The translations under genes were made by a program, and so were the position numbers. Positions 21,670 through 25,760 of a DNA stretch of 25,760 nt are shown piece after piece (position 1 is the first letter of the stretch; each line of letters opens with the position of its first letter). Below the pieces are notes generated by a model. It was not told the origin of the DNA. It searched no databases and saw only the letters and a list, made by a program, of their open reading frames with translations. The DNA comes from a virus, in the IMG/VR virus record IMGVR_UViG_3300038701_002083, positions 1 to 25,760 of that record, one strand, 5' to 3'.

Positions 21670-21704
21670 CGGTCTGTACAGAAATTCAATTAAAAAGGGT
21701 TTTG

Positions 21705-21778
21705 TGGGGAAGCATGGAATCGAACCAACTACCTCCTCTACCTAGATAGAGTCGCTCTAACCAATGAGCTACATCCCC
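21705..21778 (-). tRNA. Degenerate tRNA-like gene, apparent anticodon CTA
   Basis: Reading the - strand from 21778: acceptor GGGGATG, TA, D-arm GCTC with loop ATTGGTTA and stem GAGC (all normal), an anticodon arm CTCT...AGAG, and a TTCGATT loop. The 3' acceptor strand is CTTCCCC with discriminator A (T-T mismatch at pair 6), and CCA is not encoded. Two parts are abnormal: the T stem has only three pairs, and the anticodon loop is eight bases (ATCTAGGT), or six if an A-T pair closes it. The triplet after U33 is CTA, which would read UAG. It could be a suppressor-type phage tRNA, a decayed tRNA, or a tRNA mimic. Confidence 0.55.
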
Positions 21779-22867: not shown

Positions 22868-24088
22868 CTACTCCAAATCCATAAACTCCGTAATCAATGA
22901 ATCCTTACTACTCGGCTTATTCCCAATATATCGGAACGTCGTCGTCGCATCGGCATGACGCATCACACTCTGAATATCCGTAATCGCCATCTTCGCCTTA
23001 TTGAATGCCAAAGACGCATAAGTCCGTCGCAAATCATGAGGCGTACATGTCACCTTCAACACCATCGCCGTTATTTTCTTGATAATCTCGCGAATACCGC
23101 CCTTACTCAAACCCTTCTGGGCATCATATAACGCATTCCCGAGTTCAGGATGCCCCCCACCTTTTCTCATTGCCTGAAAAATGGGGTTAGAATCACCAAT
23201 CCGCCGAGGATCATCCGCATCGAGCGGAGCATTGTACAGCTCAACATAGTCCAAAATCGCCTTATACAATGCCTTAGAAATCGGAACACCATCAAAATTA
23301 GACCGCTTACCACGCACAATAATCTCCCAAATCCCATTATCATTCTGTTTCAGTGATGACAAACTAATCCGTTGCAACTCAGCCACCCGTAACCCACACT
23401 CAAACGGGATTTTGAAAATTAAGTAATCGCGCGCACCCACAATCGTACTCCGATCGAAGAATCTCAACAGCTTTCTCACCTGACGCTTCTTCAAACGGTT
23501 AAATTTCGGATTCCATAGTGCGCTCACATTGCTCTTCTGCTGACGTGGATTCTTGACCTCATCCAAAGCCGTCCGCATCTGTTCCTTGCACTCAATAAAA
23601 AAATCACGCATGTCACGCTTCATATTCTTGGTGTCAATATCATCAAACGGGTTAATCTGTATCCGATGTGGAGTCGCCTGCTTCACCAGCTTCTTCAAAA
23701 AGATTCGCACAGGCGCAAGATAATTACTCGCAACCGTACTCGCCGACACCCCATATTGAGGCTCTCGTGTATCCTCAGCTCCATCTTTCGGTGGCTGACC
23801 CCGATACCATTCCTTCTCATGCAGAAGATGAGCCACAAAATCAGTCAACAACTGCTCATTCGGTAACCGCATCTCCAAACCGCCCGCCCATTCAATAAAA
23901 TACAAAACCCCTCGCGTGTACGAATCTCTTGTGTACTGCTCAGGCGTTTTGTCAGACCCCAAATTCCCGATATGCGAATCAAGACCATACAAGGCTTCCT
24001 GCACATCAAAAAATTGAAGCCATGTCGAATCGTTGAAAAAATCTTGCGCTAAATCAGTTTGTAGTGGTATCATTGCTGTACTGTTCAT
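22868..24088 (-). CDS. int: Tyrosine recombinase / phage integrase, 406 aa
   Basis: Catalyses site-specific DNA strand exchange. The catalytic residues are all present in the C-terminal domain: Arg234 (CGLRVAEL), Lys261 (RGKRSNF), His351 and Arg354 (HDLRRTYASL), His378 and the nucleophile Tyr387 (MRHADATTTFRY, correct nine-residue spacing). The N-terminal 190 residues include a SAM-like core-binding domain (YTRGVLYFIEWAGG and VASNYLAPVRIFLKKLV). The start has AAGGA upstream. It is divergent from the helix-turn-helix gene and ends in TAG. Because it is separated from the tRNA-Pro fragment by the regulator, it is not clear which of the two recombinases uses that site. Confidence 0.93.
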   Translation of the reverse strand: MNSTAMIPLQTDLAQDFFNDSTWLQFFDVQEALYGLDSHIGNLGSDKTPEQYTRDSYTRGVLYFIEWAGGLEMRLPNEQLLTDFVAHLLHEKEWYRGQPPKDGAEDTREPQYGVSASTVASNYLAPVRIFLKKLVKQATPHRIQINPFDDIDTKNMKRDMRDFFIECKEQMRTALDEVKNPRQQKSNVSALWNPKFNRLKKRQVRKLLRFFDRSTIVGARDYLIFKIPFECGLRVAELQRISLSSLKQNDNGIWEIIVRGKRSNFDGVPISKALYKAILDYVELYNAPLDADDPRRIGDSNPIFQAMRKGGGHPELGNALYDAQKGLSKGGIREIIKKITAMVLKVTCTPHDLRRTYASLAFNKAKMAITDIQSVMRHADATTTFRYIGNKPSSKDSLITEFMDLE

Positions 24089-24330: not shown

Positions 24331-24359
24331 TTGACAGGTTGGAAATTATGGTATAGAGT
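24331..24359 (+). promoter_or_regulatory. Promoter of the helix-turn-helix gene
   Basis: A perfect -35 TTGACA (24331-24336). The -10 is TATAGA (24352-24357, spacer 15) or TAGAGT (24354-24359, spacer 17). The leader would be about 25 bases before ATG 24392. Confidence 0.65.
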
Positions 24360-24391
24360 TTTACTCAATGGTTAATAAAAGAGGGAACAGC

Positions 24392-24694
24392 ATGAAAGCA
24401 AAATACTCTCTCAAAAATCGTATAGCTGAACTCCTCGCAATCAAAGCACGAGATGAGGGACGCTCAAGTATCCCACAGCAAGAGATTGAGAAGGAAACAG
24501 GAATAACCCAACATTCAATCTCTCGACACATTAGAAATCAGGTTACACGATATGATGAGAAAACGATTATTCTTTGGTGTCAATACTTGGATATTACACC
24601 ATCAGAGTTTTTCGCATGGATGCCAATTAAAGAAGATGATGAAGGGGCTGACGAGCCAAAAGAAGAAAGTGCCCTATTACCCCTCTCCGCCTAA
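24392..24694 (+). CDS. Helix-turn-helix (Cro/C1-type) regulator, 100 aa
   Basis: ATG 24392 has GAGGG seven bases upstream and is preferred to ATG 24368, which lacks a ribosome binding site. Residues about 5-72 form an XRE-like domain: LKNRIAELLAIKARDEG, IPQQEIEKETGITQHSISRH (the turn and recognition helix), then YDEKTIILWCQYLDITPSEFF, the closing helices of this family. The tail is acidic. It probably binds the palindromes upstream and controls its own gene and the divergent recombinase. A short length (no oligomerisation or peptidase domain) fits a Cro-type or host-like regulator rather than a LexA-type repressor. The 3' end lies in a large hairpin. Confidence 0.8.
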   Translation: MKAKYSLKNRIAELLAIKARDEGRSSIPQQEIEKETGITQHSISRHIRNQVTRYDEKTIILWCQYLDITPSEFFAWMPIKEDDEGADEPKEESALLPLSA

Positions 24695-24713
24695 AGGTTG
24701 GGGTAAGTAGGGC
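24671..24713. repeat. Large hairpin across the end of the regulator gene
   Basis: A 13-pair stem, GCCCTATTACCCC (24671-24683) against GGGGTAA and TAGGGC (24700-24713) with one bulged G. The stop codon TAA 24692-24694 lies in the loop. There is no T-run, so it may protect the mRNA 3' end or serve as a protein-binding arm of the attachment region. Confidence 0.6.
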
Positions 24714-24721
24714 AGAAAGTC

Positions 24722-24801: not shown

Positions 24802-24817
24802 TTAGGTTCATTTCGTG

Positions 24818-24864
24818 TCGGGGTACCCGGACTCGAACCGGGGACCTCTTATCCCCGATACAAA
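24818..24864 (-). other. 3' half of tRNA-Pro(CGG): probable attachment-site core
   Basis: On the - strand the sequence reads as the 3' part of a tRNA: anticodon stem TTTGT/ATAAG with loop ATCGGGG (anticodon CGG), variable loop AGGTC, a perfect T arm CCCGG-TTCGAGT-CCGGG, 3' acceptor strand TACCCCG and discriminator A. No matching 5' half (acceptor CGGGGTA or D-arm) lies upstream, so it is not a complete gene. A tRNA 3' half directly beside an integrase gene (24899) is the classic signature of attP or of one prophage end. Confidence 0.78.
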
Positions 24865-24898
24865 AAACGGGTCTAATTAGTTCCTCCATTTGGAGAGG

Positions 24899-25760
24899 CT
24901 ATTGTACCAGTTTTTTAGGGAAAGGCGTAATATTTGAGGACGGTTTGGTCTCTTTATTGTCCAAAGATAGCTCCCTCGAAACAGCCTCGGCACGATCCCA
25001 GTCAGCTGGGTAGTAATTCAGTGTTGTGTCAGTGGATTCATGTCCTAACAGCGTCGCCGCTACCGATAATGACACACGGTTATCTGATAATTGATAGCCT
25101 TTACGGTGGCGCAAGCTATGCGGACCATATGAACCGATACCAGCATTGATGCAGGCACGACGAAAGACCTTCGTCAACGATGCAACGGTTTGGAGCTTCG
25201 GCGTTTTGGAGAATACATACTCGCAAGAATCCGCAGGGCGCAACGATAGCCAAATACGGATAGCTTCAGCAGCACCTTCACCAAATGCAACCATCCGTTG
25301 CTTACTCCCCTTCTCGACAACACTGGCAACGCAGTTCTCAAGATCAACATCTTCGACTTTGAGTGTGTGCGCTCCACCAATACGGCAACCTGTATCGGCT
25401 AGGAAGCGGATGAGGGCGTTATGCCGAGGGTGGAATTGTGACCATGCCAGTAAGGTTTCAAGATGACCTTCATCCATCGCCTTCTTGCGATCAATATTCC
25501 TCGGAGTTTTGGGTCGTTTGATGGCATTCGCAGGGGATGAGGGGATGATACCAAATTCAACTAAGAAATTAAAAAATGCCTTGATGCTAATAATGTGCTT
25601 GCGAATGGTGTGGACAGAATAATTTTTGTTCTGCAATGTACTTGCATACTTGACCACATCATGAATGTCAACATCCACAACAGGTCGCTCGGTACTAATG
25701 TATTTCATCATTGGGGTTAGGCAGCCCCGATATGCCTTTCTGGTACCGGCATTTTCATAC
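24899..25760 (-). CDS. Second tyrosine recombinase, XerC/D-like (N-terminus cut by window edge)
   Basis: The frame is open to the right edge: upstream of ATG 25711 it continues as YENAGTRKAYRGCLTPMMKY, which reads like the start of a core-binding SAM-like domain, so ATG 25711 is an internal Met. Counted from that Met, catalytic residues are Arg110 (TGCRIGGAHTL), Lys134 or Lys137 (EKGSKQR), His198 and Arg201 (GPHSLRH), His224 and Tyr233 (GHESTDTTLNY). All are present. It is unlike the 406-residue recombinase in length and motif wording. The tRNA-Pro 3' half lies 35 bases beyond its stop, so this enzyme is the likely user of that site. Stop TAG. Confidence 0.9.
   Translation of the reverse strand, partial: YENAGTRKAYRGCLTPMMKYISTERPVVDVDIHDVVKYASTLQNKNYSVHTIRKHIISIKAFFNFLVEFGIIPSSPANAIKRPKTPRNIDRKKAMDEGHLETLLAWSQFHPRHNALIRFLADTGCRIGGAHTLKVEDVDLENCVASVVEKGSKQRMVAFGEGAAEAIRIWLSLRPADSCEYVFSKTPKLQTVASLTKVFRRACINAGIGSYGPHSLRHRKGYQLSDNRVSLSVAATLLGHESTDTTLNYYPADWDRAEAVSRELSLDNKETKPSSNITPFPKKLVQ

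Follow-up and report, generated by a model that had tools for sequence, protein, structure and literature searches.

Propionibacterium phage Doucette carries a 45-bp attP core on tRNA-Pro beside its int gene (PMC5831693), and the anticodon-centred attP class of the Islander collection comprises fragments running from the anticodon loop to A73 that lie next to an integrase gene, can restore the tRNA, and recombine in the anticodon loop (PMC4383910). Other phages are known for lysogeny as plasmids. In the parts of the literature drawn on here, plasmid prophages are described as often encoding one or two recombinases of the Xer type, with a presumed role in dimer resolution (PMC8026635), and Tyroviruses as encoding three (PMC9703825). 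Phages with both an integrase and ParAB have also been reported, among them the glacial phage CY1_63_1964, which its authors, in the section used here, read as either integrating or persisting as a plasmid (PMC4490671).

The locus described here lies in a virus record from IMG/VR (IMGVR_UViG_3300038701_002083; the whole stretch of 25,760 bp is hereafter the window), in which a tRNA-Pro(CGG) 3′ half stands between two tyrosine recombinase genes, int1 and int2. As in Doucette, the predicted attP is internal to a free phage genome, an integrase gene stands 5′ of the half, and a repressor-type gene stands on its other side. Doucette int points its N-terminus toward attP, whereas the C-terminus of window int1 faces it; one recombinase is annotated in the Doucette stretch examined, as against two in the window; and the two halves match at 32/41 positions and differ at 9/41. 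Doucette is thus a precedent for the arrangement, not evidence of the same host. With the Islander class the window shares the fragment from anticodon loop to A73, the adjacent integrase gene, and the fragment's capacity to restore a tRNA gene, although the crossover position in the window is deduced from the unintegrated sequence. Phages vB_BtS_B83 and pVv01 and the Tyroviruses (one to three Xer-type recombinases) resemble the window in having more than one tyrosine recombinase, and further points of similarity are the partition genes that we find in two relatives and the proposed mixture of integrated and plasmid states. In the portions of their descriptions consulted, however, no compact arrangement in which two recombinases flank a tRNA attP is mentioned, and the attP proposed for Tyroviruses is an 11-6-11 bp inverted-repeat site rather than a tRNA half (PMC9703825). 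Compared by description, CY1_63_1964 resembles the window's group in coupling an integrase to a partition system, but the relevant part of its report has no paired recombinase cassette.

Genomic setting of the locus

The record lacks an end repeat and is best read as a phage fragment. Its minus strand encodes portal, capsid, terminase, and further late genes of a tailed phage, with a portal-to-tail block in the same order as in the relative G409, and its left end holds early-type genes on the plus strand (ASCH, DNA methyltransferase). At the right end stand, in order, int2, a regulator gene, the tRNA half, and int1. The preliminary description of this DNA had proposed checking the contig for circularity, and this gave no support: besides the missing terminal repeat, joining the ends directly leaves the integrase frame open, yet the added residues do not extend the match to the SAM-like domain, so a direct join is unsupported. 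An ARAGORN call of "tRNA-???" at 21704-21778 was set aside for its anticodon of two bases. Near the left end, positions 97-549 encode a phrog_17260 protein of unknown function; in mycobacteriophages MooMoo, Yoshi, and Farewell about 1 kb separates its homologues from the integrase gene.

A tRNA-Pro(CGG) 3′ half as predicted attP core

The tRNA half lies at 24818-24858 on the minus strand, in a single copy within the window, and reads TCGGGG-ATAAG-AGGTC-CCCGG-TTCGAGT-CCGGG-TACCCCG-A. In tRNA numbering, it runs from T33 through the CGG anticodon (34-36), the 3′ strand of the anticodon stem (ATAAG, 39-43), the V loop (44-48), a 5-bp T arm without mismatches, and the 3′ acceptor strand (66-72) to the discriminator base A73. 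The preliminary description had recognised this half and named an adjacent D arm and 5′ acceptor strand as what would speak against its reading; no 5′ half adjoins it, no 5′ acceptor strand occurs within 400 nt on its 5′ side, and the sequence shows no D arm in that stretch. ARAGORN calls no tRNA at the locus, and Rfam cmscan returns no tRNA match for a half of such length.

A perfect T arm alone is within chance (one found in the window against about 0.5 expected). The full half is beyond chance, because a degenerate pattern of it, with 34 specified bases (two of them R) and the anticodon-stem positions left free, gave just two matches across 85k species genomes (257 Gb); by ARAGORN both are complete tRNA-Pro(CGG) genes, one in an Anaerolineae MAG and one in a Peregrinibacteria MAG. 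The exact half had no match in the viral_contigs or genome_contigs collections.

On the 5′ side the half is continued, on the same strand, by a phage-derived A32 and an anticodon-stem mimic, TTTGT (24859-24864), which pairs with ATAAG at 5/5 positions, two of them wobble, around a seven-base loop. The extension of the element to 24864 in the preliminary description is therefore sensible, these last positions being a stem mimic made by the phage. They are a probable second core site for the integrase, with the anticodon loop as overlap region, and mimic and half together look as an anticodon-loop attP core would be expected to look. Putative arm-site repeats around the core are at chance level, an 11-nt direct repeat appearing in 25/200 shuffles and an 8-nt inverted repeat in 45/200. 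A 26-bp near-palindrome at 24812-24837, centred on GGGTACCC and formed from the T arm and acceptor strand plus phage bases past the tRNA end, could be due to chance or could be a recombinase site.

Integrases related to Int1 recur beside tRNA halves

The int1 gene (24899-25759, minus strand) begins its 286 visible codons at the contig end and stops 40 bp from the half, on its 5′ side, so that the recombinase is directly adjacent, as previously noted. Int1 has a Phage_integrase domain (PF00589, 3e-26; phrog_1, 1e-40) and a SAM-like N domain (core-binding). The earlier label of a truncated recombinase holds insofar as the contig ends inside the gene, with roughly 20 N-terminal residues missing by comparison with the homologue in G001, but all the catalytic residues (R, K, HxxR, GH, and Y) are present, so that int1 is interrupted by the contig edge and shows no decay.

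A motif common to Int1 and the G001 relative was used to search IMG/VR viral contigs and found 14 loci, 13 of them with a usable Int1-like gene and G001 again among them. A same-strand, T-arm-bearing 3′ half of tRNA type occurs 32-107 nt past the integrase stop in 8/13, against about 0.2 expected; two pairs of records among the eight are near-identical, leaving about six independent cases. Where the anticodon is legible, it gives the isotype as Pro(GGG) for L036, as Lys(CTT) for L038, L039, and L047, and as Met(CAT) for L042, L048, and L049. Locus L036, which belongs to phage G410, holds the best match to Int1 by identity (40%) and also has a tRNA-Pro half. The recurrence of halves past Int1-type stops, together with the Pro half of L036, therefore ties the window half to Int1. 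G001 is the closest terminase relative of the window phage (56%), and its Int1 homologue lies at the end of its record. A direct-repeat end in G421, which carries a Met half, was dropped as proof of circularity since the repeat looks low-complexity.

A two-recombinase cassette shared by distantly related phages

To the left of the half in window coordinates, the plus strand encodes a Cro/CI-type regulator of the HTH_26 family (24368-24694; PF13443, 1e-5), and divergent from it stands int2 (22868-24088, minus strand), encoding a tyrosine recombinase of 406 aa (PF00589, 2e-15). A match to the promoter consensus, TTGACA-17-TAGAGT, lies at 24331-24359, in a promoter scan that is near background. 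An imperfect 14-bp inverted repeat at 24670-24714, TGCCCTATTACCCC / GGGTAAGTAGGGCA, spans the end of the regulator gene and is possibly a terminator.

The order and strands of int2(-), regulator(+), half(-), and int1(-) are identical in two further phages, G410 (42,982 bp, containing L036) and G414 (38,313 bp, containing L040), with the regulator homologues in the same place. In G410, Int2 is 33% identical to that of the window over 419 aligned positions (E 6e-70) and the regulator 35% identical, while outside the cassette the terminase is the only other window gene matched, at 29% over part of its length. G414 has profile matches to all three genes (int2 5e-63, regulator 3e-19), a stretch of about 0.9 kb, occupied by other ORFs, that separates int2 from the regulator, and a half with a good T arm but an unclear isotype. 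Its record bears a 123-bp terminal direct repeat, which is consistent with a circular unintegrated genome in which the cassette is internal. In its Int1 homologue (L069:5213-6160) ND replaces the catalytic GH; that protein may have lost or changed its activity, in which case Int2 would be the sole intact recombinase of the G414 cassette.

Because the cassette that spans 24.82 kb is conserved in G410 and G414, both flanks of that point belong to one phage. The preliminary description had placed the element to the right of the half and offered either an attP in an unintegrated phage genome or two elements in tandem that meet at about 24.82 kb. Contrary to the first of these statements, the half has phage DNA of one and the same element to its left and to its right, and the supposed boundary falls inside a cassette conserved in two other phages; the unintegrated attP, by contrast, is well supported by the halves past the stops of the Int1 subfamily and by the Doucette precedent. 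The attP itself is ordinary. The part worth following is the cassette, which has two different recombinases where one is usual and which at least three distantly related phages share. No earlier account of such a cassette was found in a limited literature search.

Integration model and alternative explanations

We propose, with a probability of about 0.88, that a temperate tailed phage uses positions 24818-24864 as its attP core when it inserts, via Int1, into a tRNA-Pro(CGG) gene, a reading based on sequence, layout, and conservation. Int1 would catalyse crossover in the anticodon loop of a bacterial tRNA-Pro gene (catalysis, crossover point, and host all being deduced), the phage copy would restore the 3′ end of the tRNA, and the displaced bacterial 3′ end would come to lie beside int1. 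Integration through an attP that sits between regulator and int1 would split int1 from the other two genes, so that one prophage end would carry int1 next to the displaced half and the other would carry the regulator and int2 next to the restored tRNA. That split follows from the geometry, on the Islander principle (PMC4383910).

A half flanked on each side by its own tyrosine recombinase could also mark the junction of two elements stacked at a single tRNA-Pro gene, with int1 in the element on the right and int2 in the one on the left, and tandem arrays are on record, 125 among the 3919 islands of Islander (PMC4383910). We consider this very improbable, given that the order int2-regulator-half-int1 is kept in G410 and G414, the latter a record with a 123-bp terminal repeat, that the Int1 relative in G001 accompanies the same type of terminase, and that the window holds just one tRNA half and not one per element. 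A tandem of two copies of the same phage would have an identical appearance at the locus. Least credible of all is that the half resembles a tRNA by chance, or derives from a phage tRNA unconnected to integration: a bare T arm is indeed expected about 0.5 times per window, but the full half, matched only by tRNA-Pro(CGG) genes in 257 Gb, and its recurrent position beside Int1-type integrases make this reading very unlikely.

A further proposal is compatible with the attP reading and concerns the division of labour within it. The pairing of both recombinase genes around attP in three phages that are otherwise little alike, and the retention of all catalytic residues in Int2, would fit an integrase of two proteins resembling XerC/XerD, in which Int1 and Int2 each take one half-site of the tRNA core. 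Most members of the Int1 subfamily that have a tRNA half, however, show no Int2 in the fetched flanks, and Int1 is therefore apparently able to work alone; we regard the two-protein integrase as rather unlikely.

Search for the host

For a phage known only from uncultured material, the tRNA half offers a direct lead to the host, and it provides a predicted integration system for a tRNA-Pro site. The nearest tRNA-Pro genes are those retrieved by the degenerate pattern, identical to the half at 35/41 positions in the Anaerolineae MAG and 34/41 in the Peregrinibacteria MAG. Positions 38-42 of the half differ from both genes, and identity of phage and host there is assumed. The suggested search for a complete tRNA-Pro(CGG) gene sharing this sequence gave these two similar genes; the exact half, and with it an attB, was found in no genome of the searched sets. 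None of 400 Chloroflexota genomes (0/400) has the half within 3 mismatches, the sampled Chloroflexota genomes yielded no close Int1 at E <= 1e-35, and terminase relatives among them reach only 39-45% identity.

A possible plasmid state and the role of Int2

Both G410 (L052:3762-7162) and G414 (L069:7118-9770) encode ParA and a ParB-like protein at a distance of about 1 kb beyond int1. The ParB-like protein is large and its assignment is weak, resting on a ParB_N match of 8e-5 in G414 and, in G410, where there is no Pfam match, on position and size. No ParA motif occurs in the window, and the region that would match the ParA of the relatives lies beyond its right end. From these two relatives, we infer that phages of this kind may be capable of integration as well as of maintenance as partitioned plasmids. 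The attP-centred cassette, together with the ParA and ParB-like genes of the relatives, raises the question of whether these phages choose between integration and plasmid lysogeny, with Int2 deciding. It is conceivable, though doubtful, that the two highly divergent recombinases and the regulator bracketing the tRNA attP switch the phage from integrated prophage to plasmid prophage partitioned by ParAB and back, or else form the two-protein integrase considered above.

By analogy with the known plasmid prophages, and given the ParA and ParB-like genes of the two cassette relatives, Int2 most likely acts on unintegrated phage DNA, either resolving multimers in the plasmid state or aiding integration and excision; resolution of the plasmid state in particular is a tentative assignment, at somewhat less than even odds. 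No close relatives of Int2 were found in the phage, plasmid, and sampled Chloroflexota sets, which gave only weak matches to the catalytic domain. Neither a regulator homologue nor a complete tRNA gene occurs in the fetched flanks of the two Chloroflexota matches, and the only int1-profile match in them, a weak one, is the same ORF. Nor was Int2 found beside other Int1-type integrases in the fetched flanks. AlphaFold prediction of Int2, run on three sequences, reached a mean pLDDT of 53.5, too poor for a structure search. The residues R, K, HxxR, H, and Y are invariant across the three Int2 homologues, those of the window, G410 (L052:65-1237), and G414 (L069:2058-3611). The Int2 ORF of G414 has about 150 extra residues on its N-terminal side.
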